Assembly (NCBI RefSeq): GCF_007845675.1
Contig: NZ_VOBR01000026.1
Coordinates: 1-64,000, forward strand
Origin: Lentzea tibetensis
Lineage (GTDB): Bacteria; Actinomycetota; Actinomycetes; Mycobacteriales; Pseudonocardiaceae
Length of the DNA: 64,000 bases
Direction: 5' to 3'
The notes beneath the pieces were generated by a model. It worked only from the letters and a program-made list of their open reading frames with translations, was not told where the DNA came from and did not search any database. Position numbers and translations under genes: made by a program. This document shows, piece by piece, positions 47,581-63,817 of the stretch. Every line of letters begins with the position of its first letter. The first letter of the stretch is position 1.

Positions 47581-47592
47581 GTGCACTCGAGC

Positions 47593-47844
47593 TCAGAGGT
47601 TCGGGAACCAGAGCTTGATCTCGCGCTCGGCCGACTCCGGCGAGTCCGAGCCGTGCACCAGGTTGAACTGGACCTCGAGGCCGAAGTCGCCGCGGATCGT
47701 GCCCGGCGTCGCCTTCTCGACCGGGTCGGTGCCACCGGCCAGCTGGCGGAACGCGGGGATCGCGCGGGTGCCCTCGACGACCATCGCGACCAGCGGGCCG
47801 CCGGTGATGAACTCGACCAGGTCCGCGAAGAACGGCTTAGTCAA
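47593..47844 (-). pseudogene. displaced 3' half of ndk
   Basis: Encodes the last ~81 residues of nucleoside diphosphate kinase, from [15 protein letters not shown] through the active-site histidine block LVHGSD to LWFPNL and the stop. It aligns with the end of the intact ndk (50673-50920) with only scattered base changes. It lacks residues 1-55 and its upstream sequence is unrelated, so it should be non-functional. It ends in a normal hairpin terminator, which supports it being the original 3' end. Confidence 0.9.
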
Positions 47845-47860
47845 GTGCCCACTAGGGCAC
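47801..47860. other. ndk insertion core A with arm
   Basis: CCGGTGATGAACTCGACCA at 47801-47819 is identical to copies at 49337-49355 and 50881-50899. About 26 bases further lies GTGCCCACTAGGGCAC (47845-47860), a perfect 6-bp inverted repeat with a related sequence at junction B. Homology to ndk ends at about 47844. Interpreted as an attR-like junction. Confidence 0.65.
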
Positions 47861-47940
47861 CGTGAGGCACAGCAAGGGGTTCCCGCTGGTCAGCGGGCTA
47901 TTTTCGACATAGGGTAGGCCGCCTCGGTCGACCCTAGGGG

Positions 47941-49293
47941 ATGGTACTGGTGCCAAACTCAACCTCAGTATCCGGCCGAGTGCAGAGTTTCACAGTCTTC
48001 ATCGCGCGTAAGTCCGGCAACCGCTCCCGCCTCCAGCCTGTTCCACGCCCCGCACGCCTGATGGCTTGGCGAACGGCTATTCAGGTCTACAGACTTGCCG
48101 TAATTGGGAAGGCCCGCCGCACCCCGGAGCTGGAGCTCGCTCAGCTCGCGCTCCGCCGTTGCCTCTATCTCACCCGAGAGCTAGGCCGTCTACATCACAG
48201 CGCTCCGGAAGCCGCGATCATGGTCGCACGGTCGATCATTGAAACAGCGCTCGCCGGTTCCTACCTTTCCATACATGGAGCTGGCGGCGCTCAGCGAATG
48301 ATGAAGAAGCAGTCCGGAGCAGCAAGGAGGCTACGCGACCGCTTTCTAGCGGGAGACCCATTGGGCGCGCTCGCACTGCTGACCGAAATTGACCTCATCG
48401 CAACACCACTATCACCAACGCTCGCTAACGTACAAAAGACTGAAAACTTCGACCAAATATGTCGAGAGCTCGACAAGCACCCTCCGTTTTCTAGCGGAGC
48501 GCTGGCAACCCTCCTATACGAGGAAAGTTACAGCCTCTTCTCGAACCACGTGGAACATCCAACACCGCAGTCGCTTCGACGACACGCACGGCGGGTGATC
48601 AGCCTTGGCGGCCATGGACCTCGTCTCTTCAGGCCAACCAAGCTAGCGCCACAGAACACTATTGATCACGTTGTCCTACCGGCAATCGGAGCGCTTTGCA
48701 GCTGCATCACACGCAGTATAGGCAAGCCGTATGCACTACTCGATCAATGGACATCAGAGGCGGCGGGAGCTGACGGATACCTCTGGACAGGTTCCCCCGC
48801 CCGGACGCTCGCCGCCTCAGAATTGGCACATCTTGCAGGCCTGCCATCGCTACGCACACTCAACTGGTACGGACTGAGCGTTCGAGCCATCGGAATGCTA
48901 GACGTCATGCTCCAGAGCAGCGACGCCGATCAACTAGTCATCGCGTGCGAACTGCTCGACCGCAGTCGGAAGTTTCCTTACCTTCTAACGGTGATCCTTC
49001 CAAAAATTTGGCCAAAAAGCATTCTTAGTCGCCTACGAACGACCGATCAAGCTGAGACAATCGCGAAAGGTAACGCCACAGATCACCCTCAAGCGTTACT
49101 GGCAGCCTTGGCACTGGTATACGCCGGATTGTGGCCCGACGACTCCAAACTGCTCACAACAAGGCTTGAAGCGTTCGATGCAAGCGCACCATACCCCACG
49201 GGCCTGTTAGATCAGCTTGTACGCTCGGTTGCCCCTTCCGACGTAAAGCGCCTTCGTGCGAGGCATCGCTCGCAGATCCTTCGCATGCCGTGA
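47941..49293 (+). CDS. uncharacterised cargo protein of cassette 1
   Basis: A 450-residue protein I cannot assign. It is soluble-looking, largely helical and leucine/alanine-rich. The segment EAAIMVARSIIETALAGSYL in the first third recalls DUF5677-type proteins, but this is weak. There is no signal peptide, membrane span or P-loop. Codon use (frequent CTA, CAA, ATA, AAT) is unlike its neighbours, indicating transfer. ATG 47941 sits against AGGGG; the in-frame GTG at 47950 has better spacing. It is antisense to ndk. Given the setting, an accessory or defence-type role is possible but unsupported by motifs. Confidence 0.8.
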   Translation: MVLVPNSTSVSGRVQSFTVFIARKSGNRSRLQPVPRPARLMAWRTAIQVYRLAVIGKARRTPELELAQLALRRCLYLTRELGRLHHSAPEAAIMVARSIIETALAGSYLSIHGAGGAQRMMKKQSGAARRLRDRFLAGDPLGALALLTEIDLIATPLSPTLANVQKTENFDQICRELDKHPPFSSGALATLLYEESYSLFSNHVEHPTPQSLRRHARRVISLGGHGPRLFRPTKLAPQNTIDHVVLPAIGALCSCITRSIGKPYALLDQWTSEAAGADGYLWTGSPARTLAASELAHLAGLPSLRTLNWYGLSVRAIGMLDVMLQSSDADQLVIACELLDRSRKFPYLLTVILPKIWPKSILSRLRTTDQAETIAKGNATDHPQALLAALALVYAGLWPDDSKLLTTRLEAFDASAPYPTGLLDQLVRSVAPSDVKRLRARHRSQILRMP

Positions 49294-49330
49294 ACTACTA
49301 CGACGAAGGTCACGACCGCAGCGCGGTTCA

Positions 49331-49397
49331 GGACCGCCGGTGATGAACTCGACCAAATCGCCGAAAACGCTCATAGGCCATTCCCTACTAGGGGCAC
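49331..49397. other. ndk insertion core B with arm
   Basis: Bases 49331-49371 match the intact ndk at 50875-50915 at 37 of 41 positions, including the 19-base core (49337-49355). In the minus strand this encodes [12 protein letters not shown], then leaves the ndk sequence on both sides. CCCTACTAGGGG at 49383-49394 parallels the CCCACTAGGG arm of junction A at nearly the same distance (28 versus 26 bases). Confidence 0.65.
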
Positions 49398-49436
49398 TGC
49401 TTGACTCGGCACCGTTTCCACTGGTCACAGCATTCG

Positions 49437-50591
49437 CTAGCTGTCAGCTGTATCAACACGTCGATGCGACAACAACGTCCGTTGGTCAATATCAACAGAT
49501 CCAAGCTGCTCAGCGGTCAAGGTTGTATTTCGTAGGTTCGCGCCTTGAAGCTGTGCACCACTCAGGCTCGCCCCCTGTAGTTGAACACTCTCCAGTCGCG
49601 CTCCCTGGAGTTGCGCCCCATCAAGAAGCGCCTCTTGTAATTGCGCCCCATCCAGACAGGCCGATTGCAGCAGCGCATGCTCCAGAACCGCGTTCTGAAG
49701 CTGGGCACCTCTCAGCACCGCTCCCTGAAGCTCCGCGTTTCGTAGCGTCGCACCCTGGAGTTGCGCTCCTTCAAGACTAGCCCCTTGAAGGCCTGCGCGC
49801 GACAACCATGCATTTTGAAGGCGCGCATCGTCCAGATTCGCAAGGTGAAGCTCTGCGTCCCAAAAAACTGCGCCCCGCAAGTCTGCACATCGCAGGTTCG
49901 CGCCAACTAGCACCGCTCCTTGCAGATTCGCATCTCGAAGATCTGCGTCATGCAGATTCACGCCAAAGAGGTGCAGATCATGGAAGTCAAGTTCTCCTCG
50001 CTCCTGGTTGGCACGCTTTGGACGTTGCGCTAAGGCGGTGAGTGCGGCTTGCACGTCCGCGGCCGGTTCACGCGACAACTTTGGAGTGTCCGTTCCGATC
50101 GGCGGATGCATCCATTGCCGCTGGTCCACAGGTTCGTCCCGTCGTCGCGGTGCTCGACCGCGAACAAATGCGACTAGAACCTCGACAACATCTCCGTGGT
50201 GTTCAGGAGAATCGCGCATGACGTGCTCGAGCGCATGCACTCCACCGATTCGGACATATAGCTCATCAGAGCCAAGCCGTTCAAGAGCTTTAGTGAACCG
50301 CTCGGTCACCTGTCCTCGATGCGCTAACCGATAGTTTCTGGCGGTGTAAAGCAGACCTGTAACCACGACCAACGCACCGCCGATCGAAATGACTATCAGC
50401 CGAGCGTTGTGTTCCGCAATCAAGCGATGCTCAGGCCCAAGTCGATGGTCGCGGAGGAGATCCTGGTTAACCAGCAGCGAAGGAGCACGCCAAAGCATGA
50501 GTGTGTAGAGCCCGAGTAGAACTAGCGCCGCTAGGACGACTCCTAGAGTCCGAATCGCTGACCAGCCGCTACGGCGCACACCATGCTTCAC
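49437..50591 (-). CDS. membrane-anchored pentapeptide-repeat protein (cassette 2 cargo)
   Basis: A 384-residue protein with two N-terminal membrane spans (LGVVLAALVLLGLYTLML; LIVISIGGALVVVTGLLYTA), a conserved block RGQVTERFTKALERLGSDEL with VRIGGVHALEHVMRDSPEHH, and a C-terminal right-handed beta-helix of about 30 pentapeptides of the A(D/N)LxG type (LQGAxL repeated). This architecture is widespread in actinomycetes with no proven function. It is co-oriented with ndk. Base composition is lower in GC than the backbone, consistent with transfer. Confidence 0.87.
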   Translation of the reverse strand: MKHGVRRSGWSAIRTLGVVLAALVLLGLYTLMLWRAPSLLVNQDLLRDHRLGPEHRLIAEHNARLIVISIGGALVVVTGLLYTARNYRLAHRGQVTERFTKALERLGSDELYVRIGGVHALEHVMRDSPEHHGDVVEVLVAFVRGRAPRRRDEPVDQRQWMHPPIGTDTPKLSREPAADVQAALTALAQRPKRANQERGELDFHDLHLFGVNLHDADLRDANLQGAVLVGANLRCADLRGAVFWDAELHLANLDDARLQNAWLSRAGLQGASLEGAQLQGATLRNAELQGAVLRGAQLQNAVLEHALLQSACLDGAQLQEALLDGAQLQGARLESVQLQGASLSGAQLQGANLRNTTLTAEQLGSVDIDQRTLLSHRRVDTADS

Positions 50592-50627
50592 GCCATGTTG
50601 TCGGCGTACTTGAACAAACAGTTACAA

Positions 50628-50662
50628 CGATGGCCCGGATCGAAGTCCGATCCGGGCCATCG
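50628..50662 (-). terminator. terminator of intact ndk
   Basis: Perfect 15-bp stem CGATGGCCCGGATCG (50628-50642) with CGATCCGGGCCATCG (50648-50662), loop AAGTC, 11 bases past the ndk stop. Its sequence is unrelated to the hairpin behind the displaced ndk 3' end, so it came with the restoring 3' segment. Confidence 0.85.
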
Positions 50663-50672
50663 AAACAGCAGC

Positions 50673-51083
50673 TCAGAGGTTCGGGAACCAGAGCTTGATC
50701 TCGCGCTCGGCCGACTCCGGCGAGTCCGAGCCGTGCACCAGGTTGAACTGGACCTCGAGGCCGAAGTCACCGCGGATCGTGCCCGGCGTCGCCTTCTCGA
50801 CCGGATCGGTGCCACCAGCCAGCTGACGGAACGCGGAGATCGCGCGGGTGCCCTCGACCACCAGGGCGACCAGCGGACCACCGGTGATGAACTCGACCAG
50901 ATCGCCGAAGAAGCTCTTCCCGTCGTGCTCCGCATAATGCTGCTCGGCGGTCGCGCGGTCGACGGTGCGCAGCTCGAGCGCGGCCAGGGTCAGGCCCTTG
51001 CGCTCGATGCGTGCGATCACCTCACCGACCAGACCACGGCTGACGCCATCGGGCTTGACCAGAACCAGGGTGCGCTCAGACAC
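50673..51083 (-). CDS. ndk: nucleoside diphosphate kinase
   Basis: A complete 136-residue NDK, transferring the gamma-phosphate of NTPs to NDPs through His117 in NLVHGSD. Other family blocks are [31 protein letters not shown] and LWFPNL. GTG 51083 starts at [12 protein letters not shown]; another in-frame GTG lies 9 bases upstream. By the insertion model, codons before about K56 are native and those after came with a cassette; the protein is intact either way. Confidence 0.97.
50881..50899. other. ndk insertion core C (inside intact ndk)
   Basis: The 19-base CCGGTGATGAACTCGACCA within ndk codons for VEFITG, identical to cores A and B. Lies in a part of the gene that is strongly constrained, so it would serve as a dependable attachment site. 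Confidence 0.65.
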
Positions 51084-51292
51084 GACGGTCACGTACTCCT
51101 TCTTGCGGGGATAACGGAGGCCCCGTCGTTCCACGGGTATGCCGCACAGGGTAGCGATGGGGCCGACGGGTCAGCATAGGAACCCGGTTGCAGCTGCTCC
51201 GGGTGCCAGCTGCACGGGCCTGAGTGGAACCAACCAGCACGGCTAGGCGACCAGCCACAACGAGAATCAGGGGACGCGTGTCGCCCCGATCG

Positions 51293-52138
51293 TCAGGCGT
51301 TCGCTCCGAGTGCGTGAAGCACTCGGACGGCCTCCTTCTTGACTGGCTCCAGCAGTGGGCTTGGCTTCGGCTTGCTGGAGTTCAGCCGAATGACGTTGGA
51401 GCAGAACAGCAACTGCGCCAGCAGGCCCGAACGCGAACTCAGGTCGTCCACGAACTCCGCTTGGACCCGATGCGCCACGCTCGGCACAAGCAGACAGTGA
51501 CCCCAGAGGGTCGCGGCGTCGAGGCCTCGCGGCGCACGACCCCAGCTGTCCCAGTCGAGCAGGTAGCAGTCCGGCGCGGTGAGGTTGCCGAAGTGGAGAT
51601 CGGCGTGCGCCGTCGTCCACTCGTCCACCTCGGTGTCGATCCCCTCGTCGCCGAACACCTGGTTGATCCGCCGGGTCAGGTGCGCCTGCGCCATTGCAAC
51701 GCGCTCCGTCTCGACAGCTGCCAGGGCCGCCAACGATGACCCCAGGCTGTCCCACCAGGCGACCGAGAGGTCAGGTTCCTCGTTGATCAGCCCGGTGGAG
51801 TGAATCGCCCGAGAGGTGATCAGCTCAGTCTCGTCGGCCCGCCACACAACCGACCGAACACGGTCCACCCACCGGTACGAGCGGAACAGCTCCGGCTTCT
51901 TCACGCCGGTGATCGCCGAGGCGATCTCCGTCCCTGTCCACGATGGACCGTGGATGTCGTGGGCGTCCGTCCACGCGATCCGCACCCACGTGTCCGAGCT
52001 TGTCGCGAATCCGATCGTTGAACCTTGGGTGCCGTAGGCGCTGCGGGACTCGTCCAGCCGGACTTCCAGCACCTTCTCGACTTCGGCGCGCACATCGTCC
52101 AAGTTCTGCGTGCGCAGGTTGTAACCGTCGAAGTTCAC
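51293..52138 (-). CDS. APH-type phosphotransferase
   Basis: A 281-residue kinase-like protein. The catalytic loop is HADLHFGNL and the metal-binding aspartate is in LLDWDSWGRAPRG, both typical of aminoglycoside/choline/homoserine kinases. The N-terminal lobe is divergent and no clear glycine loop is seen. It overlaps the aldo/keto reductase stop by 4 bases (ATGA) and is last in the peptide-modification operon. Possible roles are phosphorylation of the peptide product or of a donor small molecule, or self-protection. Confidence 0.82.
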   Translation of the reverse strand: MNFDGYNLRTQNLDDVRAEVEKVLEVRLDESRSAYGTQGSTIGFATSSDTWVRIAWTDAHDIHGPSWTGTEIASAITGVKKPELFRSYRWVDRVRSVVWRADETELITSRAIHSTGLINEEPDLSVAWWDSLGSSLAALAAVETERVAMAQAHLTRRINQVFGDEGIDTEVDEWTTAHADLHFGNLTAPDCYLLDWDSWGRAPRGLDAATLWGHCLLVPSVAHRVQAEFVDDLSSRSGLLAQLLFCSNVIRLNSSKPKPSPLLEPVKKEAVRVLHALGANA

Positions 52139-53034
52139 GAGCGAACCCTAGCCAATCGCGATTCCAGTTGATGTTGTTCGGCCCGCCTCCGTCGTAGGAG
52201 GCCCCGATAGGTGGACACCAACTCAGCGTCGACCTGCAAGGTGGTCGCCATGACTAGATCGCTGAGGTGTGTCAGGTTCTCCGTGCCGACCACGACGCGG
52301 TCGACGGCGGGGAGTTCAAACGCCGTCCGAAACACCGCTTGTGGCTGCGTACACAGTGCTCCACCGGCGAGGTACACCCGCGCGTCCACCTCGTCCCACA
52401 CCGGCTCCTGCGCGTTGCCACCGAATGGGCTCATGCCCCATCGACCCTCGGCCGGAATGTCGAGCATCTCGAAGAGGCGTTCTGCGTCGTCGAGGCCATC
52501 CGAGTCGACGAGCAGTCCGGCCCGAACCATGATCACGGCAGGCTGCAGTGCGTGTTCGGCCACGGTGAGCGCGCTGAGGATCGGCTGCGGGTTCCAAGTC
52601 GACCAGCCCCATTCGCCACAAAGTCCTTCGGCCTGCGCTTCATCCAGCACGGCGCAGGCCGCTTGCAGCCGCTCAAGGGCTTCGGCCGGTGGCAGGTTCG
52701 CCAACGACTGTTCCGGGTTGTGCAACAGGATCGTCGACGGCTCCAGGTCGAGGTCGTCCACCGTCAGCCTTACCCCGTACCGCAGAATTTCAGGTGTCAG
52801 GTGGTGCACCGGTCGACCTGCCTCGTCGGGGAAGAACCCCACCTTGGTCGAGATGTCGAACTCTGGGAGCAGATCCTCAGCCACCTTGACGAGCGTTCGG
52901 TGCGACGCGAACTGGTGGTAGTTGAAGCTGGTGTCTAGGCGACGGACCCCGCGAGCGAGAGCTCCTTCGAGGAGATCCCGCTCATGACGAGATCGGTATA
53001 GCCCGAGCGCAACTCCGCGGTCAGCTCCGCGCAC
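52135..53034 (-). CDS. aldo/keto reductase family protein
   Basis: A 299-residue TIM-barrel oxidoreductase of the AKR type (ALGLYRSRHERDLLEGALAR, LDTSFNY, FDISTKVGFF, STILLHNPEQSLA, VVVGTENLTHL). NADPH-binding residues at the end are partly altered. The homologous N-terminus requires a start near GTG 53034, which places the first ~100 bases inside the JmjC gene. This long same-strand overlap suggests tight translational coupling. Confidence 0.83.
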   Translation of the reverse strand: MRGADRGVALGLYRSRHERDLLEGALARGVRRLDTSFNYHQFASHRTLVKVAEDLLPEFDISTKVGFFPDEAGRPVHHLTPEILRYGVRLTVDDLDLEPSTILLHNPEQSLANLPPAEALERLQAACAVLDEAQAEGLCGEWGWSTWNPQPILSALTVAEHALQPAVIMVRAGLLVDSDGLDDAERLFEMLDIPAEGRWGMSPFGGNAQEPVWDEVDARVYLAGGALCTQPQAVFRTAFELPAVDRVVVGTENLTHLSDLVMATTLQVDAELVSTYRGLLRRRRAEQHQLESRLARVRS

Positions 53035-54179
53035 AACTCCTCCTCGATCAGCACAGCGGCCAGCCCTTCAACTTCGACACCCGTCGCCGACTCGACCTCG
53101 GTGAGGTCGACGGGAGCGCCGGACAGCAGCAGCCGCAACGCGGGCAACGCCTCCTCGGCGAAGGCGATCTGCTTGCCCGCACCAGTCACGAGCACCCGGC
53201 CGCTGCGCTGCTCGAACTGCGGCGGAAACTCAGTGATGCAGGCGACCGCGTCCGGTGTGCCGAAGATGCTCTTGGTCTTGACGTGGCGCCAGACCCGACG
53301 CAGCCGCTCGCGCTCGGCGAGAAAGTCCTCGACCGGGTAGCCCTCGATGAGGCTCATCGCGGCGCCCTTGAGAGTGTCGGACTCCTGCTGCCGAACATCG
53401 CGTGTTCCCCAGCGGTTGAGGTCAGCGCGGAAGAGCCCGTCCCGACGCGCCTGGTCACCTGCCCACGTCAACCAGTCGACGGCGGTCTGCTTCGAGAACC
53501 CGAAGGTGGCGTGCAGGCTGAACCCATCACCCTGGTCAGCGCGGGTGGCACGGTGCCAGCAGCCGCGCGGAATGTTCATGACATCGCCAGCCTTCAGCGT
53601 GCCTTGCCAGATGATCTCGTCCGGCGGAGTGTTGTTCCGCTCGGCGTCGCGGTGCATCGGAGCGACGCGTGACTGACCACGGACCTCCCAGGACTTCTCG
53701 CCGGCCAGCTGCACGACGAGAACCTCGTGGTCGTCCCAGTGCAGCGGGAATCCGTCGGTAGCGCCGGTGGTCAGGTAGGTGTTGACCCGTGCGTGCTCGC
53801 GGGACCACCACCCCAGCGCACGGCAGGCCACCTCCATCGTCGGGTCGAAGGCGTCGACCCCGTCGAGGACGATGGTGCAGCCGTCCTCCATCAGGCTCGC
53901 GAGTCGGGGCATGTTGGCCATCCGGACGGCCTGCCCCCGACGGCTCGTCCCCTCGTCCAGGAACCTGGCGGGATGGATCTCCCCACCATCTTGAAAGACG
54001 CGCAGCTGCGGATTGCTCAGGCTGCGCCGCATGATGATGTCGAGCAGCCTGTTCGGATTCAGGATTCGTGCGCAGAGCTCCGCATCAGGCAGAGCCCCGC
54101 GCACGAACTGAGCACCAAGACCCTTCGGCCCCGACCAACCGAGAGCCTTCTCGATGGAACTGACGAGAACGTGTTCCAT
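52935..54179 (-). CDS. JmjC/cupin Fe(II)- and 2-oxoglutarate-dependent oxygenase
   Basis: A 414-residue protein resembling ribosomal-oxygenase-type JmjC enzymes (NO66/MINA53/YcfD). Iron ligands are H147 and D149 (FPLHWDDHEV) and H209 (IPRGCWHRA), with K162 in GEKSWEV a candidate 2-oxoglutarate contact. A dimerisation segment and C-terminal winged-helix-like region follow. ATG 54179 has GGAGG 6 bases upstream. It follows directly after a 48-codon peptide gene, suggesting the peptide as its substrate, with hydroxylation of His, Arg or Asn as the likely chemistry. Confidence 0.87.
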   Translation of the reverse strand: MEHVLVSSIEKALGWSGPKGLGAQFVRGALPDAELCARILNPNRLLDIIMRRSLSNPQLRVFQDGGEIHPARFLDEGTSRRGQAVRMANMPRLASLMEDGCTIVLDGVDAFDPTMEVACRALGWWSREHARVNTYLTTGATDGFPLHWDDHEVLVVQLAGEKSWEVRGQSRVAPMHRDAERNNTPPDEIIWQGTLKAGDVMNIPRGCWHRATRADQGDGFSLHATFGFSKQTAVDWLTWAGDQARRDGLFRADLNRWGTRDVRQQESDTLKGAAMSLIEGYPVEDFLAERERLRRVWRHVKTKSIFGTPDAVACITEFPPQFEQRSGRVLVTGAGKQIAFAEEALPALRLLLSGAPVDLTEVESATGVEVEGLAAVLIEEELCAELTAELRSGYTDLVMSGISSKELSLAGSVA

Positions 54180-54246
54180 TTGCACCTCCAAAGGCGAACG
54201 ACGCCGGGGCGTCGGATTTGGCTTCGAGATGACGTGCTGCCCAGCC

Positions 54247-54393
54247 CTACTCCGGGTGGTTCAGCTTGTCGCGGTTCTCCCCGTCGTCACCGGTCGACGT
54301 CCCCGTCGAGTCCGAGTGAGCGGCATCGGCGTAGCGAGCCTGCACCTGAGTCAGGCGCTCGACGTTGAGCACCAACTCTTTCTTCTTCTCCAC
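54247..54393 (-). CDS. small peptide, putative RiPP precursor
   Basis: A 48-residue peptide. The N-terminal part is amphipathic and leader-like (KKKELVLNVERLTQVQARYA); the C-terminal part is polar and flexible (AAHSDSTGTSTGDDGE, then NRDKLNHPE). GTG 54393 has AGGGGG about 8 bases upstream. It lacks cysteines, so lanthionine chemistry is excluded. It has two histidines (residues 26 and 46) and Asn/Asp/Arg side chains a JmjC enzyme could hydroxylate. The 67-base gap to the JmjC gene and shared strand fit an operon. Confidence 0.62.
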   Translation of the reverse strand: MEKKKELVLNVERLTQVQARYADAAHSDSTGTSTGDDGENRDKLNHPE

Positions 54394-54561
54394 TGCAATC
54401 ACCCCCTATCTCAATTTCGAATCCGGCACCGCAGGTCATCAGTGCGCACCGAACGGCTTGAGCCGTTGCGGGCCGGACACGATGCCCCGCGGTGAGGCAT
54501 GGGAGCCGGACGACAGCGCGGAGCAACTGCGGGAGAGGCCTCGACGCACTGCCGTCCGACG

Positions 54562-55143
54562 TCATCGCCGGATCGCCGTCAAGGCACACGATGCGACGGT
54601 CGCCACCGACGGAAGTCCGAAAGTCCCCGGCATGGGTGGGCTAATCCAGTGCAGTGATTCACTGTTGCATGTCGGACTAGGCGGCAACGAGAAGAGGGAG
54701 CCACTGCCGAAATGCGCCACTCCGTGAAGTGAAAGTGTTGGCATGTTCGTGATGCTCGGCGGCTGAGACTGGCAGAAGAAGGCCCAACGACGCGTCGAGC
54801 CCCGTACCTCCAAAACGGAGGCGTCGAGCCGCAGCAACTTCAAGTGGTGATTGACCTCGCCGCCAAGAGCGCTTGTCATCCAGACGACATCGACGATGTC
54901 GCCACAGCGGAGCATGACGTTGTTGCCCCGCACCAATGTCGGCCATCCGAGGCCGTTCGCGTAGAGGCTGACTGCTGGGCGCGGGGAGCAAGTCGCCGCG
55001 ATGCCGCCCCTTGGCGACTCGCTCCCTGCACAGCCGGTCGAGAGCGCCTCGGGGGTGCTGTTCTCGACCTCATTGCGCGACACCGGAAGCGCGCCCAGCG
55101 GAGAGCCGAGGGCGAAGCGTCTGTCTTCGGTGCGCGTTGCCAT
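54562..55143 (-). CDS. uncharacterised actinomycete protein
   Basis: A 193-residue protein with ATG 55143 behind AGAGGAAG. The central region (VRGNNVMLRCGDIVDVVWMT, VNHHLKLLRLD, RRWAFFCQSQ) and the end (LHWISPPMPGTFGLPS ... ALTAIRR) recall a family of short actinomycete proteins often found beside XRE regulators and loosely related to primase/polymerase N-terminal regions. I know of no function. It is divergent from the XRE gene at 55332. Confidence 0.65.
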   Translation of the reverse strand: MATRTEDRRFALGSPLGALPVSRNEVENSTPEALSTGCAGSESPRGGIAATCSPRPAVSLYANGLGWPTLVRGNNVMLRCGDIVDVVWMTSALGGEVNHHLKLLRLDASVLEVRGSTRRWAFFCQSQPPSITNMPTLSLHGVAHFGSGSLFSLPPSPTCNSESLHWISPPMPGTFGLPSVATVASCALTAIRR

Positions 55144-55251
55144 AGTGAAACTTCCTCTGTCGTATTCGCTGAGACCGCCGTCTTTCCCGAGGTCTCCCTG
55201 CGGTGACTTGAAGTTATGGCGCTAGCCCGATCGGGCGGAGTCGCCACACGA

Positions 55252-55289
55252 GGTGGCCATTTGCTGTGGGTGGCCAGAGGAGGTGGCCA
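55252..55289. promoter_or_regulatory. triple GGTGGCCA repeat in divergent promoter
   Basis: GGTGGCCA occurs at 55252-55259, 55269-55276 and 55282-55289, each containing the palindrome TGGCCA, in the 188-base gap between the unknown gene and the XRE regulator. The arrangement fits operator sites for the adjacent regulator; this is inferred. Confidence 0.55.
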
Positions 55290-55331
55290 CAATGGATGCG
55301 CACAGCGCCACGACACCGGAGGATGTGGACC

Positions 55332-56603
55332 ATGCACGAGCCGACGATCGGGCCGCTGCTCCGCGAACTCCGGGAAAGTGCTGGTAGGTCACAGGGCGAG
55401 CTGGCGGCGTTGCTGTCGGATAGTGCTGACAGACCTGTCACGCGCAACGAGGTTTCCCGGTGGGAAGGCGAAACCAGGCTGCCAACGCCCTACTGGCAGA
55501 AGCACCTGGCCGCCGCCTTGGAGGTGCCGGTGGCGGACTTGCGAGGTGCGGTCGATCGCGCCAAAGCCAAACGCCGACTCCAACAGCGCGAAGAAGACCA
55601 GCCCGAAGGGAGCGATGTGCAGCGACGTGAGTTTCTTGGTGCTATGGCCGTGGCTGGCCTCGCCGCATCGTGGCCGAGCATCACGCGCTGGACGCCGGGG
55701 CGACGACTCGGCGGGAGCGACGTCAAACGTTTACTCAGTGGGACTGCGCGGCTACGACGCCTTGACGACTTCCTCGGCGGCGCCGACACCTATCGCCTGT
55801 ATGCCCACGTGCTGAAGGAAACACAGGCTTTGGTCAAGGGCGCCAGCTGCACGTCCGACACGAAGCGCGCCTGCACAGCGGTCATCGCCGAGCAAGCGCA
55901 GTTGGCTGGTTGGGCTGCGTTCGATGCCGGCATGCACCCCGAGGCCACGGCGCACTACGAGACCAGCTTCGAGGCAGCGAAGGAAGCAGACCACGCCGCA
56001 TTAGCGGGGAATGCACTGGCTTTCCTCGCTTACCAGCAGGTGACGTTCGAAAACCCAAGTGTCGCAATGGCTACAGCTTCCTACGAGACTGCCGAGAAGC
56101 ACGCGACGCCACGTGTACGAGCCCTGCTTCTCGAGCGCATGGCGTGGACATTCGCCGTTGCCGGGCAGCCCAAGGAGACAGAACACGCGCTGGCCACCGC
56201 TGCCGAAGTGGTGCACCTGACGGATGACCGTCCGGAGCCCGACTGGGTCTTCTGGGTCGACGAAGACGAAATCAAGATCATGACCGGGCGGTGCTGGACC
56301 CAGCTACATCGACCGCTCCGGGCCGTTCCAATCCTCGAGGACGTCCTCAGCCGATACGACGACACCCATGCCCGTGACAAGGCCATCTACCTGACCTCGC
56401 TGGCGCACGCATACGTTGACGCACGAGAAATCGAACAGGCCGCAACCGTCACGCAGCAGGCAGTCGAGTTGGCGACGGGCGTCGGCTCGGTGCGGCCTGC
56501 GGAACGCATCCAGAAGGTCGTGCATCGGCTCCAACCGCACCGCGCCCTGTCGCCCGTCTCCAGTGTTCTGGAGGCAGCGGCCAACCTGCCTACTGCTCGT
56601 TGA
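55332..56603 (+). CDS. XRE-family regulator with TPR-like C-terminus
   Basis: A 423-residue protein. The helix-turn-helix is at about 10-55 (LLRELRESAGRSQGELAALL ... NEVSRWEGETRLP). A linker carries QRREFLGAMAVAGLA, a twin-arginine-like remnant often present in this regulator group, and the rest is TPR-like helices. ATG 55332 was chosen; an ATG 9 bases upstream is possible. Such regulators commonly control neighbouring actinomycete peptide clusters, so it may regulate the JmjC operon. Confidence 0.87.
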   Translation: MHEPTIGPLLRELRESAGRSQGELAALLSDSADRPVTRNEVSRWEGETRLPTPYWQKHLAAALEVPVADLRGAVDRAKAKRRLQQREEDQPEGSDVQRREFLGAMAVAGLAASWPSITRWTPGRRLGGSDVKRLLSGTARLRRLDDFLGGADTYRLYAHVLKETQALVKGASCTSDTKRACTAVIAEQAQLAGWAAFDAGMHPEATAHYETSFEAAKEADHAALAGNALAFLAYQQVTFENPSVAMATASYETAEKHATPRVRALLLERMAWTFAVAGQPKETEHALATAAEVVHLTDDRPEPDWVFWVDEDEIKIMTGRCWTQLHRPLRAVPILEDVLSRYDDTHARDKAIYLTSLAHAYVDAREIEQAATVTQQAVELATGVGSVRPAERIQKVVHRLQPHRALSPVSSVLEAAANLPTAR

Positions 56604-56913
56604 CGGACTTGTCGAGCCACGCCTTGTAAGCCTCGGGAGCAGCCACGATGGGAACCGCCGTCAGTTCAGGATTGTCCCAAGGGTGCACTTCGAGCAGATG
56701 CGCTTCCAGTTCCCTGTAGCGGTCGGCGGTCGTCCTGAGTGTGACCTGCCATTCCTCACCCTCGCCCATCTCGCCGTTGTGCCAGAAGAACGAAGTATTC
56801 GGTCCGGAGATCAGCGCAGCACCTGCCAGACGCGCAGCCACAGCCGAGCGAGCAAGACTGGCGGCCGTGTCACGGTTGTCAGCGGTCGTAGTCACCTGCA
56901 AGTAGTCGCTCAC
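56590..56913 (-). CDS. cutA: CutA1 divalent-cation tolerance protein
   Basis: A 107-residue CutA1, a trimeric PII-like protein (LQVTTTADNRDTAASLARSA; EEWQVTLRTTADRYRELEAH; HPWDNPELTAVPIVA). GTG 56913 starts the conserved region. Its end overlaps the convergent XRE gene by 14 bases. Linked to metal tolerance in other bacteria; the role here is unknown. Confidence 0.9.
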   Translation of the reverse strand: MSDYLQVTTTADNRDTAASLARSAVAARLAGAALISGPNTSFFWHNGEMGEGEEWQVTLRTTADRYRELEAHLLEVHPWDNPELTAVPIVAAPEAYKAWLDKSVNEQ

Positions 56914-57120
56914 GACAACAGCCTAGGTGGCCTGGGACGTGCCACGCCTCAGCTACTCCTCAGAGTTGCTGGTTTCGCCTGCTGGTCGCGTCGATGTCGC
57001 TGCGAGGTGTCGGCACTGCGCTGGGGTCCACTGGCGGAGAGCGCGGGCCAGCTCGTTGAGGTCGAGGCAACGGAGAGCCCGACACAGCGTGGCCAGGAAT
57101 CGCCGTTGGCGCTGACAGAG

Positions 57121-57747
57121 CTACGCAAGCCACCAGTACGGGAGACCTCCAGCTACAACACCAACCAGTGCGCCCACGAGCACCTGCGCGATGGTGTGGT
57201 CACGAAGCCGTACTCGTGACCACGCGACCAGCGCGACAGCCGCCGACAGCAGTACGAGCCAGGGGCCGTAGGCGGCCATGAGGATCAGCACCGCTCCGGC
57301 GGCTACCCCAGCGTGCATCGACAGCTTGAAGTTCAGTCCGAAGGTGATTACGACGCTCACGACGAGCGTGGCGAACATCGTGCTCGCCAGCACGATCATC
57401 TCGTTCGGGGAACCGCCGAGGACGAGGATGGCGATTCCGCCAGCGAGTGAACTGGTACAGGCGATGAATGGGACCACGCGCCCTTCTCGGTTGGTGACGT
57501 GGTGGCTGTCCCACTTGCCGTTCTTGGCCCCTCGGACGATGACGATCATCGGGATGATCGAGCCGGTGACTCCGACGACGAGGCCCCACAGCAGGGTGGC
57601 GCCAACTCTGTGGGTCGCACTCCAGGCGATCGCGAGAGGCAGGCCGAGGACCCAGACCCACGGCGCAAGGATCTCGGTAGCGAGGCGAGCAATTCGAGTT
57701 GCAGCCGTGCGGGTTGCGACGCTCTCCGTGTTACTTGGCGTGATCAT
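57121..57747 (-). CDS. PAP2-like membrane phosphatase
   Basis: A 208-residue protein with six predicted spans. The PAP2 sites are recognisable as KLSMHAGVAAG and VRLRDHTIAQVLVGALVG (conserved His in each), while the first site is weak. Substrates could be lipid phosphates or polyprenyl pyrophosphates. It overlaps the upstream membrane-protein gene by 17 bases. The frame stays open for about 55 codons after its stop but without a start codon. Confidence 0.8.
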   Translation of the reverse strand: MITPSNTESVATRTAATRIARLATEILAPWVWVLGLPLAIAWSATHRVGATLLWGLVVGVTGSIIPMIVIVRGAKNGKWDSHHVTNREGRVVPFIACTSSLAGGIAILVLGGSPNEMIVLASTMFATLVVSVVITFGLNFKLSMHAGVAAGAVLILMAAYGPWLVLLSAAVALVAWSRVRLRDHTIAQVLVGALVGVVAGGLPYWWLA

Positions 57748-58888
57748 GAAGGTTCAAGTACTCCTCGACGATGGCGGATACGAGCGGTGATTCGGTGAAC
57801 GCCTGCGCGACGCGGACGAGCCGTTGTCCTTCGGAGGCGTCATCAAGATCGTCGTCGTTGCCGATGACAACTGGCGTGGACGTCAGCGGCGGCAACTCGA
57901 GTCGCGTGGCTTCCAGTGCGACTGCGATGACCGCGGCCTCTGCGACGGCACGGGCATCCTCACCAACGAGTCCGTCTTGCTCAGCCCGTTGTTGAGCGTG
58001 CTCAAGCACCAGCGGATCCAGATAGGCGTGTAATGGTCCAATCAGGACGTCCTGGATCTCGGTGATCTGCATCCGCAGTAGCGGTCCCCGGCGGCTGCCG
58101 AAAACCAGCTCGGGTGCGACGGCGGTGACGGCGCTCCACAACGGACGCACGACCGCCACGGCTTGTCGCGCTTCTCGTCGAGCGCCAAGCGGCGGGGCCA
58201 TGACGCCGCTCATCAGGAACACGATGGCCAGCGTCACGAACCACAAGCTTGGTCCCAGCGGTCCGTTTTCGTCCCACGGCGGGACGATGCCGAAGGCGCG
58301 GGCGAACCCGTAGCCGAGCCTGTGGATCACGTAGAGCAGTCCGAAGATGCTTCCTATGCCGAGCAGTCGAAGTCCGATGCGCAGGAACCGACGAGGAACG
58401 TGGGAAGCAAGGCGGGACATCCACAGGGTGTCGAGCATCGCCAGACTCAGGTACCCGCCGTACATCGCCAGGTACTGAGGGACCCATGGTTGGTCACCGG
58501 CCGACGACGGTATGAACACCAGGTCTGATTGCAGAGGACCCAGTACGTAGAAGGTGCTGAGGCCGATCAGCGCGACGGCCAACGTGATGGCGCGTCGCCG
58601 CGTGAGGGGTGCCGTCTCGTCCGGGCGATGAGTGAGGTGCAGGCAGAACACCTGCAGCCAGTAGGCCGACGTGAGAACGCAAACGTGCTGAATGAACTGC
58701 GCGAGCCCAGGAACTCCGATGCCGGCTTCGACAGGTCCGCCCTTGACGCCGAGACACAGAGCGAGGTCGAGCAGGAGCAGTGACAGGCACATTGCCCGAA
58801 CGCCGGGCTTGCGGCTCTGCTGATACGAGCGGACCCAGAACGTCAGCGCGGCCGTCACCGATAGCACGGTGGCGAAGAAGAAGATCAT
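57731..58888 (-). CDS. MAB_1171c-like membrane protein
   Basis: A 385-residue protein with seven predicted N-terminal spans (from IFFFATVLSVTAALTFWV to VTLAIVFLMSGVMAPP) and a soluble helical C-terminal third. It matches the MAB_1171c group of putative transporters found next to ImmA/IrrE proteases and XRE regulators in actinomycetes. Function is unproven; a sensor or substrate of the protease is possible. Confidence 0.78.
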   Translation of the reverse strand: MIFFFATVLSVTAALTFWVRSYQQSRKPGVRAMCLSLLLLDLALCLGVKGGPVEAGIGVPGLAQFIQHVCVLTSAYWLQVFCLHLTHRPDETAPLTRRRAITLAVALIGLSTFYVLGPLQSDLVFIPSSAGDQPWVPQYLAMYGGYLSLAMLDTLWMSRLASHVPRRFLRIGLRLLGIGSIFGLLYVIHRLGYGFARAFGIVPPWDENGPLGPSLWFVTLAIVFLMSGVMAPPLGARREARQAVAVVRPLWSAVTAVAPELVFGSRRGPLLRMQITEIQDVLIGPLHAYLDPLVLEHAQQRAEQDGLVGEDARAVAEAAVIAVALEATRLELPPLTSTPVVIGNDDDLDDASEGQRLVRVAQAFTESPLVSAIVEEYLNLHDHAK

Positions 58889-58900
58889 GACGTTGGGGAG

Positions 58901-59464
58901 TCACCCTTCGAGGATGGAGCCGTACCTGTCGACGGCTTCCTGGTAGTCGGGGTCTGCCGATCGGCGGTCGCCGAGAACCCGCATCGGTCCCATGCGGTCC
59001 TCAAGGGCGTAGGCAAACGCCTCCGCTGCCCGCTCTTGATCGTCTTCGTACAGGCTGCGGTGCGTCGCTTCTCGCACGACTTCGGCGGAAAGGTTCTCGC
59101 TGTCGACGACCGCACTGGACGCGATCACGTGCCGGGCACAGATGTGTCCGAGCTCGTGCAGGATCGAATGACGCTGGTGGGCCGGTGATGTGTCCTGTCG
59201 GTAGAACACGTAGATACGAGCCTGACCGCCGACGCACATTGCCGCAGGCAGGCTCTCACCTGCCGTCCTCCACGCGAGTACAACGTGCTCAAGGTATGGC
59301 CGGACCACGATCGGTACACCGGCGATCTTCTCGGCTTGCTCGAGGAGACCGCTGAGGTCGAACGGCTCGGTGACTGGCAGTCGGCGGGCGAGTTTTCGCG
59401 CAGCTCGTTCGGTCAGGACCGGGCCCGAGTTCTGACTTCGCTTTAAGCCGCAACGGAACTTCAC
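58901..59464 (-). CDS. ImmA/IrrE-family metallopeptidase
   Basis: A 187-residue zinc protease with the HExxH motif in HSILHELGHICARHV near residue 97. ImmA/IrrE proteases cleave XRE-type repressors in mobile elements and in stress responses. It starts one base after the XRE gene stop, so the two are an operon and the XRE protein is its probable target. Confidence 0.88.
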   Translation of the reverse strand: MKFRCGLKRSQNSGPVLTERAARKLARRLPVTEPFDLSGLLEQAEKIAGVPIVVRPYLEHVVLAWRTAGESLPAAMCVGGQARIYVFYRQDTSPAHQRHSILHELGHICARHVIASSAVVDSENLSAEVVREATHRSLYEDDQERAAEAFAYALEDRMGPMRVLGDRRSADPDYQEAVDRYGSILEG

Positions 59465-59465
59465 G

Positions 59466-59942
59466 TCAGGCCCCGTCGCCGTTCTGCGCGCTGCCCTGCT
59501 CCAACACGCTCACCTGGTCGATCAATCCCTGTATGAGCGCCTGACTCTCGGGCGACATCTTGGCGACCTTGCGCAGCATGACCCGAGACGCGGCAGGCTG
59601 ACTCGGAACGTCGACCTCTGCGTCGCCAGGCGCGTGCCGGTCGCGGGCGATCCGTCGCTCGACCTCCCAGTACACCTGCGGATCGATGAAGTACCCAGGT
59701 TGATAGCCGAAGAACTCGCCAATGATCTTGATGTGGCTGACCCGCGGGTCACTCGGTCTGCCGAGCTGACGGAGGTTCCAGACGTGCGTTTGCGACATCT
59801 CGATGCCCTGGCTGCGCGCCCAGGACGCGACGTCCTCGTTGCTGTACGCCTTCCTCTTGCCGTCCTTCGTGTGGCGTTGGAACAACGTGTTCAGGACCTC
59901 AGCCAGGCTCGGCATCCCATCTGAGCCGCGATCGCTCACCAC
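59466..59942 (-). CDS. XRE-family regulator paired with ImmA/IrrE
   Basis: A 158-residue protein with an N-terminal helix-turn-helix (SNEDVASWARSQGIEMSQTH then VWNLRQLGRPSDPRV) and a C-terminal helix. GTG 59942 opens directly at the palindrome-rich promoter. It likely represses its own operon and the rightward genes until cleaved by the adjacent protease. Confidence 0.87.
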   Translation of the reverse strand: MVSDRGSDGMPSLAEVLNTLFQRHTKDGKRKAYSNEDVASWARSQGIEMSQTHVWNLRQLGRPSDPRVSHIKIIGEFFGYQPGYFIDPQVYWEVERRIARDRHAPGDAEVDVPSQPAASRVMLRKVAKMSPESQALIQGLIDQVSVLEQGSAQNGDGA

Positions 59943-59955
59943 TCACCCCCATCGT

Positions 59956-60070
59956 CTTCACGCCCGTGAAGAAAGTGAACAGATTTCACTATAGCCGTTG
60001 ACAGCGCAACCATCTCGCACCCTATGCTGCCTCGCGGGTTGATCTCAACGCAGATGAAGAAGAGTCTTCA
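59956..60070. promoter_or_regulatory. three palindromes in the XRE divergent promoter
   Basis: CTTCAC-GCCC-GTGAAG (59956-59971), AGTGAA-CAGAT-TTCACT (59974-59990) and TGAAGA-AGAG-TCTTCA (60055-60070) share the GTGAA/TTCAC half-site. TTGACA near 59998 and TATGCT about 19 bases later could form a rightward promoter between them. Best explained as operators of the adjacent XRE regulator. The 354-base gap to the next gene otherwise shows no gene. Confidence 0.7.
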
Positions 60071-60296
60071 CAGCAGTGGAGATCGAGGGGGGAATCGGTG
60101 CGGAGCACCGTCCGAGGGGGGACGTTGGCGCGCCGGGTGACAGGGCTCACTGCCACCCGGCCGCCACGTCGGGAGTCTCAAGCAATGCTGTCGAAGTGGC
60201 TCGCCGTGATAGCGAAGCCGGGCCTCCAAGGTTGGATGCCCGGCAAACCCAACTCCTTCTGTTCACTGGGTTTTCGCGGTCAGGGGGCCGCAAGCC

Positions 60297-60617
60297 ATGT
60301 CCAACATCTACAGCACCACAGCCGTTGCCGACTCGATCTCGCTGGACGACCTGGCGTATAACGTCGAACTACTGCGCATCGTCGAAGATCAGATCGGCCG
60401 ACTCACCGCCCTGAAGAACACCTTGCGGAGCACACTCAAGGTGCGCCTCGGCGAGCACGAGATCGGCACCGTCAACGGTGTGCCCGTCGTCAGCTACACG
60501 ACGGAGCTACGGGTCATCACCGTGGTGAAGACGCTCAAGGAGAGGTATCCCGAGCAGGCCCGCGAGTGCGAGGACATCATCCCGGTGCGGAAGTTCCGGG
60601 TGCTGGACGCCGCATGA
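60297..60617 (+). CDS. small phage-associated hypothetical protein
   Basis: A 106-residue protein with a helical N-terminal half (LDDLAYNVELLRIVEDQIGR) and a beta segment GTVNGVPVVSYTTELR followed by VVKTLKERYPEQARECEDI and VRKFRVL. The last part resembles sequences at the ends of proteins linked to phage YqaJ-type nucleases. No catalytic residues are seen. It overlaps the next gene by 4 bases. Confidence 0.7.
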   Translation: MSNIYSTTAVADSISLDDLAYNVELLRIVEDQIGRLTALKNTLRSTLKVRLGEHEIGTVNGVPVVSYTTELRVITVVKTLKERYPEQARECEDIIPVRKFRVLDAA

Positions 60618-61102
60618 CCCGCAGGACTGGGTCCGACCGGTCTCGGGGGACCGGTCGGACCCGATCTGATGGCGCCCCGGCCGCACTCGGCGAACTGTCC
60701 GCCGAGATCGCCCAACTGCTCGTCGGCCTGCCGTTGGACTACGGCACGACGGTGGAGCAGATCGCCGCGCTGCTCGCGGGCGAGCCGCGCAACACCTCGC
60801 ACGTGTCCGCGGTGATCGCGGTGATCGTCCATGACGCACTCGCTGATCCGTTCCGCGAGACGACCAGCAACCGCTGGCGTGAGCACCTACCCGCGTGGCT
60901 GCGGCCGCAGATGGTCGGCGCGACCGTGCGCCGCCTGCTGTCCGCCGAGGTGCTGATACCGACTGGCCGCTACGTCCGGTCGACCGACACCCGTGGCGGT
61001 AACGGCGGGAAGTTGATGCCGGTCTACGCGCTCAATCTCGCCGCGCCCGCGCTGCTCGCGCGCCGGGACGCCGCTGCGTCCGGTCAGGCCGTCTCGGCCT
61101 GA
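60614..61102 (+). CDS. hypothetical protein, winged-helix-like
   Basis: A 162-residue protein with a low-complexity arginine/glycine start and a helical core (LSAEIAQLLVGLPLDYGTTV, IAALLAGEPRNTSHVSAVIA) that could form a winged helix, ending in a strand-rich segment near YVRSTDTRGGNGGKL. ATG 60614 overlaps the upstream stop. Function unknown. Confidence 0.65.
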   Translation: MTRRTGSDRSRGTGRTRSDGAPAALGELSAEIAQLLVGLPLDYGTTVEQIAALLAGEPRNTSHVSAVIAVIVHDALADPFRETTSNRWREHLPAWLRPQMVGATVRRLLSAEVLIPTGRYVRSTDTRGGNGGKLMPVYALNLAAPALLARRDAAASGQAVSA

Positions 61103-61183
61103 TCTTCGCCGTTGCCATCGCCGCGCACCGTCGCGCGGCCTGTTCGTGCTGTCCGCACATCGTCTTGTTGGGGGATCACTTCC

Positions 61184-62398
61184 GTGGCACGTGACCACGC
61201 CCGCTTCTACTTGAGCATCTGGTCCGATGAGGACTTCATCGCGCTGTCCGCGCTCGCCAAGATCGTGTACGTCCAGCTCTGCACTCAGCAGAAGCTGACC
61301 TACGCCGGAGTGCTGGACGTCTCGGTGAAGCGCTGGACTCGGGCGCACCCAGACCAGAACATCGACGCCGTCCGGGCCGCGCTCGCCGAGCTCGACGCCG
61401 CCCGCTTCGTCGTGATCGACCACGACACCGAAGAGCTGCTGGTCCGCTCGTTCATCCGGCGCGATGGGCTCTACAAGCAGCCCAACGTGTTGCGCGCCGC
61501 GCTGCGGTGCGCGTTCGAGCTCGAATCGCCGCTGCTGCGCAAGGCGTTGGCGGTCGAGCTGCGCCGCCTGCCCACCGAGATCACCGGCCCCGCCCCGGCC
61601 GTCGCCGCGACCGAGCTGGAGGCCGGGGCGCGGGAGCTGCCCGCGTCGGTGAAGGCCGCGATGACGATCCGTGGCACCGGCCGCCCCGCGCCCGCCGAGC
61701 AGGCCCCGGTGCCGCCCGCGCCCGCCACCACGACGGACGTGCAGGACGGGGGTCCGCCGAGCCCTTCCGCGAAGGCCCTGGGAGAAGGGAGTGGGGAGTT
61801 GGAGACTGGAGTAGTCCCTCCTGCGTTGGAAGAAACTCAAGTGGGTGTCCCCGCGCCTACGCCCGCGCACACGGGCGCCCGCCCGCGTACACGCGAGGCA
61901 GCCCCGGCCAGCCCGGCTGCTTTCGCCGGCGTGGACGACGAGCTCGAGCACGGCTCAGTCCGGCAGATGCGTCGAGCCGAGGCCGACAGGCTGGTCACCG
62001 CGTACTGCCCACAGCAGCCGGGCCGGGTCCTCGACCGGCTTCGCGGCGAGGTGATCGGCCTGCTGCGTGACGAGATCACCCCCGAGGTCATCGCGGCAGG
62101 GCTGCGGCAGTGGTCGGCCAAGACCCTGCCGGTGACGTTCCTGCCCGAGCTGGTCGGCGAGCTCATGCGCGCCGAGTCCGTGCCGGGCACGCCGCAGGAT
62201 CGGCAGCGGGACCTGGCGGTGGTGCGCAACTTCGAGGCGATGCGCGCCGACGCCCTGGCTGAGGACGACACCACGCCGATCGGGCGGGCCGTGCGCGCCG
62301 AGCTGCCCGCGCACACCGACGCCGCGACGCTGCAAGCGATCCTCGACCGCGCGCTGGCCGAGACCATCGCCGCCTCCGGGCTGGAGGTCGCGGCATGA
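61184..62398 (+). CDS. replication-initiator-like phage/plasmid protein
   Basis: A 404-residue protein. The N-terminal 130 residues (RFYLSIWSDEDFIALSALAK, LTYAGVLDVSVKRWTR, FIRRDGLYKQPNVLRAALR) match the winged-helix domain of actinophage and integrative-element replication proteins. A long proline/alanine linker follows, then a helical C-terminal region (YCPQQPGRVLDRLRGEVIGL) like DnaD/O-type loaders. GTG 61184 has GGGGGA upstream. Its stop overlaps the next gene. Confidence 0.7.
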   Translation: MARDHARFYLSIWSDEDFIALSALAKIVYVQLCTQQKLTYAGVLDVSVKRWTRAHPDQNIDAVRAALAELDAARFVVIDHDTEELLVRSFIRRDGLYKQPNVLRAALRCAFELESPLLRKALAVELRRLPTEITGPAPAVAATELEAGARELPASVKAAMTIRGTGRPAPAEQAPVPPAPATTTDVQDGGPPSPSAKALGEGSGELETGVVPPALEETQVGVPAPTPAHTGARPRTREAAPASPAAFAGVDDELEHGSVRQMRRAEADRLVTAYCPQQPGRVLDRLRGEVIGLLRDEITPEVIAAGLRQWSAKTLPVTFLPELVGELMRAESVPGTPQDRQRDLAVVRNFEAMRADALAEDDTTPIGRAVRAELPAHTDAATLQAILDRALAETIAASGLEVAA

Positions 62399-62997
62399 GC
62401 CCGCAGCCGCCGCTGACCCGCAGCGAGGTCCGCGGACTGCTGGCGCACTACCGCCTCGCTGGCGGGGACCAGGTCCCCGACGGCATGGTCACCGCCTGGC
62501 TGCGGGACCTGCGCGGCTACAGCGCCGGGGAATGCCACGCCGCGCTGTCCTCGTTGCCGCCCAACAGGGTCACCCGCACCACGGCCGTCGAGATCACCCG
62601 CCTGGTCGACCACGCCCGCTCGCACCCCGCAACCACCGGCACGCCCAGCTCCGCCCGCCCACCCGCGCCGCGCGACCAGGCCGCCGAGCAGGCCGCCGGA
62701 GCCGCTGCAGGAGCGCGCGGCATCCGCGATGTCTACGAGGCGATGGGCTGGACCTGGAACCCCGAGCACGTGCTCGCCCGCTCGGTGCGCTGCCCGTTCT
62801 GCCGCGCGCTGGCCGGTCAGGTCTGCGGCCCGCTGACCCGCAACCGCAACGGGAAGCGGGAGCTGCGCGACCCGATCACCCGGATGCACCCGTCCCGGCT
62901 GGAAGCCGCTCGCGCCAAGCAGAAGCAGGCCGCCGAGGACCACACCACTCGCGGCCCGGCCGCGTCCGCCGCCGTCCCGCAAGGAGCCCACGCATGA
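62395..62997 (+). CDS. phage-type zinc-binding hypothetical protein
   Basis: A 200-residue protein. The N-terminal half (LTRSEVRGLLAHYRLAGGDQ, MVTAWLRDLRGYSAGECHAA) is helical; the C-terminal half has VRCPFCRALAGQVCGPLTRN and MHPSRLEAARAK, a Cys/His group typical of small actinophage zinc proteins. It overlaps both neighbours by 4 bases. Confidence 0.72.
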   Translation: MSPQPPLTRSEVRGLLAHYRLAGGDQVPDGMVTAWLRDLRGYSAGECHAALSSLPPNRVTRTTAVEITRLVDHARSHPATTGTPSSARPPAPRDQAAEQAAGAAAGARGIRDVYEAMGWTWNPEHVLARSVRCPFCRALAGQVCGPLTRNRNGKRELRDPITRMHPSRLEAARAKQKQAAEDHTTRGPAASAAVPQGAHA

Positions 62998-63707: not shown

Positions 63708-63776
63708 CCTTCAGTCGCTTTAGCAGGCACTATGACAGGGCTGGGTACACGTATGCCCAGACCCCCCAACCTCTCG

Positions 63777-63817
63777 ACGAAGCCCGCCACACCTCTCCCC
63801 GGTGTGGCGGGCTTCGT
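63777..63817. terminator. strong hairpin terminator
   Basis: Perfect 17-bp stem ACGAAGCCCGCCACACC (63777-63793) with GGTGTGGCGGGCTTCGT (63801-63817), loop TCTCCCC, followed by CGTTTCT. It closes the rightward replication-type operon and may also serve the leftward gene entering from the window edge. Confidence 0.88.

Follow-up and report, generated by a model that had tools for sequence, protein, structure and literature searches.

The first 64,000 nucleotides of contig NZ_VOBR01000026.1 of Lentzea tibetensis, referred to here as the window, carry three segments of ndk, the gene for nucleoside-diphosphate kinase (Ndk), interspersed with two cargo genes. On the minus strand, a complete ndk (51083-50673) is followed by a gene encoding a pentapeptide-repeat protein (50591-49437), a piece of ndk of 42-44 bp near 49331, a convergent gene of 450 amino acids (aa) on the plus strand (47941-49293), and finally the 3′ half of ndk (47838-47593). 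A 19-base core, CCGGTGATGAACTCGACCA, is present in exact copies at 47801, 49337 and 50881. With up to three mismatches allowed, the window contains four matches to this core against a mean of 0.02 in shuffled sequence. Across the whole genome a 17-base part of it occurs at three exact places and at one further place with a single mismatch, so that a common repeat unrelated to ndk was rejected as its source. The complete gene and the 3′ half have a 243-nt repeat in common (95% identity) and both match Pfam NDK, and the middle piece comprises 42 bp of ndk with 90.5% identity to the complete copy. The two cargo genes, whose open frames are 450 and 384 aa long, have 58% G+C, compared with 71% and 69% in the host flanks. 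In these respects, namely the three identical cores, the complete, short and displaced ndk segments, and the divergent base composition of the cargo, the original prediction, made from the window alone, described the locus correctly. Gene calls were made with a simple codon-usage script rather than a trained gene finder.

The 3′ half (47593-47838, minus strand, crossover bases 47837-47838) is the severed end of the host ndk. A search of the complete Ndk against its own genome located residues 1-58 at contig 92743-92916. This is the missing 5′ half, at a distance of 42 kb along the contig, beside a large serine integrase; both were invisible to the original prediction because the window stops at 64 kb. 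Joined at an AA core (5′ half 92750-92916), the halves give an intact ndk of 136 codons. The crossovers are at contig 47837 and 92750, with 44,913 bp in between. At the junction at 92.75 kb, the left attachment site (attL), GACGGCAA meets TCCTTTCTGC. At the junction at 47.84 kb, the right attachment site (attR; 47779-47870, minus strand), a phage arm ending in GGGCACTTGACTAA is fused to ndk, and CTTGACTAA meets GCCGTTCTTC. Only the two-base AA crossover is common to attL and attR. The phage (attP) and bacterial (attB) sites of serine integrases have little in common beyond the crossover, as is also observed here, and because of this ndk is not rebuilt across the junction: the 5′ half enters phage sequence and then stops, and no intact target gene spans attL or attR.

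Between the crossovers, PHROG profiles identify a replication initiation protein (61184-62398, plus strand; PHROG 3171, 1.9e-55), terminase, portal, major head protein (capsid), tape measure and endolysin, giving a tailed-phage set of terminase, portal, capsid, tail and lysis genes; two of the ten prophage proteins scanned had no match. Judged by its genes, the 44.9-kb element between the ndk halves is a temperate siphophage prophage, which occupies 47839-64000 of the window and runs on to contig 92749. Its integrase (483 aa, contig 91210-92658, minus strand) is separated from the ndk 5′ half by about 90 bp and from the complete ndk by 41 kb. Its resolvase N-terminal and recombinase domains (PF00239 and PF07508) score above cut-off, and the PF13408 zinc ribbon falls below (20.2 vs 25.3 bits). 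On the host side of the 5′ half lie genes for a sigma factor and transporters, on that of the 3′ half genes for GNAT and ABC-transporter proteins, and the same neighbours surround the intact ndk locus of the genome G024 (here and below, G-numbers denote compared genomes, and G000 that of the window). Full-length ndk is present in all 24 congeners examined, which bears out the expectation, set in advance, that relatives would have an empty, intact ndk.

The complete ndk (50673-51083, minus strand) is a whole second gene near the left end of the prophage, hereafter the spare. It matches Pfam NDK at 5.6e-52 and scores 194 bits with the NCBIfam model of nucleoside-diphosphate kinase, above the cut-off of 155 bits. 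The site that matches the crossover, at 50917-50918, has ndk sequence on both sides and no attL-type hybrid, and host-like sequence extends about 120 bp upstream of the gene. Nonsynonymous divergence from the host copy (dN, 0.0175) is low relative to synonymous divergence (dS, 0.177). It is very probable, on this evidence together with the comparisons below, that the prophage inserted into ndk and carries the complete second ndk as a replacement for the gene it splits. The original prediction had supposed that an element-borne 3′ end restores the gene; instead, ndk stays split and a separate, complete copy is carried.

The same arrangement recurs in other genera. Integrase matches at 1e-60 or better were found in 12 of 391 family genomes, and besides G000 the orthologues are those of G078 (69% identity; a different genus, on a single contig) and G275 (68%; a further genus). 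In both, the integrase adjoins an ndk 5′ half of 58-59 codons, a complete ndk is present, and an ndk 3′ half follows it at the far end of the prophage. The distance from the stop codon of the complete ndk to the crossover is 74 bp in G078 and 51 bp in G275, with no cassette separating the gene from attR. Joining the halves restores attB in all three genomes. The three prophages have the phage arm end ACTTGACTAA in common, the GGGCACTTGACTAA end of the window being identical in G078 and G275. They also have most structural genes in common, in the same order, with capsid identities to G000 of 84% and 78% and terminase identities of 87% and 77% (G078 and G275, respectively). Thus, a split target and a carried equivalent gene accompany the orthologous integrase in three of three prophages. 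The remaining nine integrase matches (35-48% identity) have no ndk inside a flank of about 1.5 kb. In a class-wide sample, an integrase match at 1e-100 occurred in 3 of 394 genomes, one of them G000; in the remaining two, the integrase has no ndk next to it. Phage records contained no integrase relative above 60% identity.

Further features of these prophages were noted. The phage arm of attR in G078 (L064, about 5700-5750) and G275 (L065, about 7105-7160) contains a long inverted repeat, which may double as a terminator of the spare. In IMG/VR, the G000 and G275 prophages are present with their integrase end, and the ndk query hit the 5′ half of G275 only. Since this query found no spare in IMGVR_UViG_2891418749_000001 and IMGVR_UViG_2675903223_000002 (33.8 and 39.0 kb), automatic prophage boundaries seem to cut off the end that bears it. 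The left arm in the window (51293-54191, minus strand) encodes, by profile matches, an APH-like protein (under cut-off), an aldo/keto reductase and a JmjC-type cupin; the APH-like and JmjC-type genes have relatives in the G078 prophage, and none of the three is found in that of G275. A Peptidase_M78 (IrrE-like) gene with a weak PADLOC match to capP lies in the phage immunity region (58901-59239).

Related phages that insert elsewhere serve as a control. A related capsid was detected at 1e-40 in 39 of 298 family genomes, and among the best 10 candidates per genome a second close ndk is absent from the 36 capsid-bearing genomes other than the three above; in G002 and G188, the second matches are paralogues (37% and 47%). 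Six of the 36, with capsid identities of 85-89%, were examined over 52-54 kb (G002, G007, G129, G268, G121 and G169). No ndk piece was found in this range by a test that recovers the ndk copies in the three positives. Five of the six have a serine-integrase match of 23-43% identity, and none was found in G121. Self-comparison of the six revealed no duplicated target gene, save for one 33-aa match between two other genes of G121. G278 was considered as a further insertion and rejected, its ndk pieces being about 100 bp apart, as in a single frame-broken gene.

These comparisons bear on the possibility that the spare is a metabolic gene that supplies nucleotides during phage growth, independently of the insertion site. 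Ndk makes deoxynucleoside triphosphates, and the phage additionally carries a gene resembling phosphoadenosine phosphosulfate reductase, which is filed as an auxiliary metabolic gene. However, ndk accompanies three of three phages that insert into ndk and none of the six related phages that insert elsewhere, ndk matches occur in 21 of 50,697 phage records, and the spare sits at the attP arm in two of the three prophages. Explaining the spare by metabolism alone is therefore improbable, though it fares better than the other alternatives considered below.

The origin of the spare alleles was traced in a tree of 78 ndk genes, in which the three spares do not group together. The G000 spare is placed with its own host (100/85), the G078 spare with G081, another species of its genus (100/99), and the G275 spare among congeners (100/90). 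Monophyly of the spares is rejected by the approximately unbiased (AU) test (p 1.7e-64; p 1.2e-5 once the 40 bp surrounding the crossover are left out). Because the spares are not monophyletic, the allele at the spare position is one that, on the evidence of this tree, has been replaced or newly captured at least twice. Relative to their nearest alleles, the other two spares have dN/dS values of 0.0101/0.460 and 0.0169/0.256. The host-genus origin of the alleles, together with the approximately 120 bp of host upstream DNA in G000, could be taken to mean that the spare is a passenger without a role, a host ndk captured by imprecise excision. Three different intact alleles at the corresponding place, each with low dN relative to dS, speak against such a passenger, as does the finding that the G078 and G275 spares resemble the host locus from the start codon onwards; this explanation is distinctly unlikely.

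A possible protection of the spare from the integrase was examined through sequence changes near the crossover. In G000, the 40 bp surrounding the crossover contain 9 of the 22 differences between spare and host, a concentration matched by none of 57 comparable host pairs. Corresponding clustering is reached by 29 of 636 host pairs for G078 and 21 of 150 for G275, the host pairs not being independent of one another. The AA core is lost in the G078 spare and in its nearest relative G081, and is kept in the G275 spare. Of 75 native alleles, 66 contain GGCAAG, the six bases round the core, and the three attBs that were used are among them; one of three spares contains it. The closest native relative of the G078 spare also lacks GGCAAG, which weighs against an altered attB. 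Protection of the spare from the phage integrase by an altered attB is thus suggestive, not proved, with a strong case in G000 alone. Gene conversion of the flanks would give a similar clustering of changes near the crossover.

Additional evidence for repeated use of the site comes from the genome G410. Exactly two ndk matches were found in 19 family genomes, and in 18 of these the second is a paralogue of 37-47% identity. In G410, the second match is a 32-residue piece of ndk 1.1 kb past the complete gene. Here a complete ndk in its usual upstream context is followed by 1022 bp and then by CACTCGACTAAG fused to a decayed ndk 3′ half, downstream of which the sequence resembles, by eye, the native sequence of G409. 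Neither integrase nor attL was seen in the 18 kb examined. The complete ndk of G410 has no attL-type junction, and the locus is therefore best read as the remains of a lost prophage. The simplest reading of the G410 sequence is a scar of recombination between ndk 5′ ends, which would have left the spare, cargo and attR. The interval between the complete ndk and the phage arm holds a frame of 305 aa with no Pfam match (L190, G410:C12, contig about 156300-157350), which represents a third, different single cargo gene at ndk. The score of the G410 arm against the G078 and G275 arms was reached by 0 and 2 of 2000 shuffles, respectively.

The middle core of the window can be placed in the same series. 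The arm beside it (the segment 49331-49439, minus strand, comprises a decayed phage arm and 42-44 bp of ndk) scores against the G000, G078 and G275 arms at levels reached by 0, 3 and 0 of 2000 shuffles, and its ndk part matches the spare allele at 38 of 44 positions and the host allele at 32 of 44. Given the decayed arm and the spare-like ndk part, the middle core is interpreted as a fossil attR, left by an earlier insertion. The shortest path to its position between two cargo genes would be insertion of a new phage beside a scar of the G410 type. The motif CTCTGARCTGCGGA, found close to the spare's stop codon, turned out to be the start of the phage arm and was not used as evidence. In G024 (L038, G024:C1 about 10270-10520, minus strand), a decayed 3′ part of ndk (residues about 64-130) lies away from the native locus and near a tyrosine-recombinase-like fragment, perhaps left behind by another ndk-carrying element.

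Cargo gene 1 (47941-49293, plus strand; 450 aa) has a weak DUF5677 match under the Pfam cut-off and no match in 386 other family genomes. Cargo gene 2 (49437-50591, minus strand; 384 aa) matches Pfam Pentapeptide at 1.4e-36. A known defence role is not supported for either, as they have no PADLOC match and no NCBIfam family at cut-off.

The original prediction proposed that small recombinase-free cassettes insert serially at the ndk core, each with a gene-restoring ndk 3′ end. Its inference that ndk is a protein-coding, site-specific and repeatedly used attachment site is upheld by the prophages in three genera, the G410 scar and the fossil attR. A single-gene insert without a recombinase does occur in G410, and reads best there as residue of prophage loss; the unit of insertion is the 44.9-kb prophage with its own large serine integrase. 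As a whole the cassette model, to which three cores with one gene per pair and the single frame between complete ndk and 3′ remnant in G410 would lend themselves, is very hard to sustain against an ndk 5′ half and integrase at the far end of a 44.9-kb prophage, a complete ndk without attL-type hybrid in both the window and G410, and the absence of any cassette between complete ndk and attR in G078 and G275.

Insertion of a prophage with its own replacement gene accommodates these observations as follows. The large serine integrase inserted the 44.9-kb temperate siphophage into the chromosomal ndk within codon 56, at the AA crossover. The insertion splits ndk without rebuilding it across the junction, and lysogens would obtain the enzyme from the phage-borne complete ndk next to the attP arm. 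If the ndk 5′ ends of host gene and spare recombined, the prophage could subsequently be deleted, with the spare remaining as the host gene. What G410 shows would be the outcome of such a deletion: the spare, a single cargo gene, the phage arm and a 3′ half in decay. Within the window, two cargo genes would have been gained between the spare and attR, and the middle core would derive from an earlier insertion.

Several points weigh against this reading. Just three prophages of the ndk type are known, and the G000 spare lies 3 kb from attR with extra genes in between, in which the other two differ. A search that included IMG/VR turned up no free phage genome in which ndk lies next to attP. The G410 arm is unlike the G000 arm (score reached by 344 of 2000 shuffles) and the fossil arm (951 of 2000). 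The ndk search of 391 family genomes covered the best 10 candidates per genome, so that short pieces could escape it. Finally, we infer from sequence alone that the spare is expressed and needed in the lysogen.

A broader and more tentative proposal, somewhat less likely than not, is a cycle of core-gene swapping driven by these phages. In it, the spare would be a poor target for the integrase and would be refreshed with alleles of the host genus; after prophage loss via the ndk 5′ ends, it would become the only ndk of the host, with cargo parked beside it. If true, lysogeny would be a route for the replacement of core metabolic genes that leaves new genes in the chromosome. The ndk prophages represent a replicated case: in three genera, a phage has entered a housekeeping gene and brought the whole gene along. 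A carried whole gene fits the constraint of serine integrases, whose attP and attB are too unlike to rebuild the gene across the junction. With this case, the question of whether phages can replace core host genes becomes testable, the one-gene "cassettes" at ndk are explained as probable remains of lost prophages, and the ndk site is a new coding-gene attB for actinomycete tools.

Elements such as e14 and phage 21 in icd bring along the 3′ end of their target gene, which is thereby made whole again after insertion. There too a housekeeping gene is entered without loss, whereas the host ndk remains in two halves and the prophage contributes an entire second gene. phiC31, Bxb1 and other actinophages have large serine integrases with a coding-gene attB. 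The integrase type and the coding-gene attachment site are the same, and the ndk target and the carried full copy distinguish the present prophages. Large serine integrases and their target genes are described in PMC10083194. The term "ndk" is absent from the main texts of PMC10083194 and PMC12884075, and no report of an ndk attachment site was found in the literature searched, most subscription papers being outside its reach.

The closest precedent is the tmk island of Pseudomonas. In Pseudomonas putida KT2440, a 65-kb island lies in tmk and carries the replacement kinase PP_1964 (PMC10653934). The function of the carried gene was demonstrated there by experiment (PMC10653934), whereas the spare ndk is known from sequence. 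The two systems also differ in that the tmk island uses tyrosine-type recombinases rather than a serine integrase, and in that its carried gene is a T4-like deoxynucleoside monophosphate kinase (dNMPK) of an origin unrelated to tmk (PMC10653934), unlike the host-genus ndk allele, which has been exchanged repeatedly. In both cases, a prophage-like element interrupts a nucleotide-kinase gene and has a covering gene at its end, and related elements are found in several genera; for the island, strains are reported in which the carried gene alone remains (PMC10653934), as would hold for G410 on the present reading.

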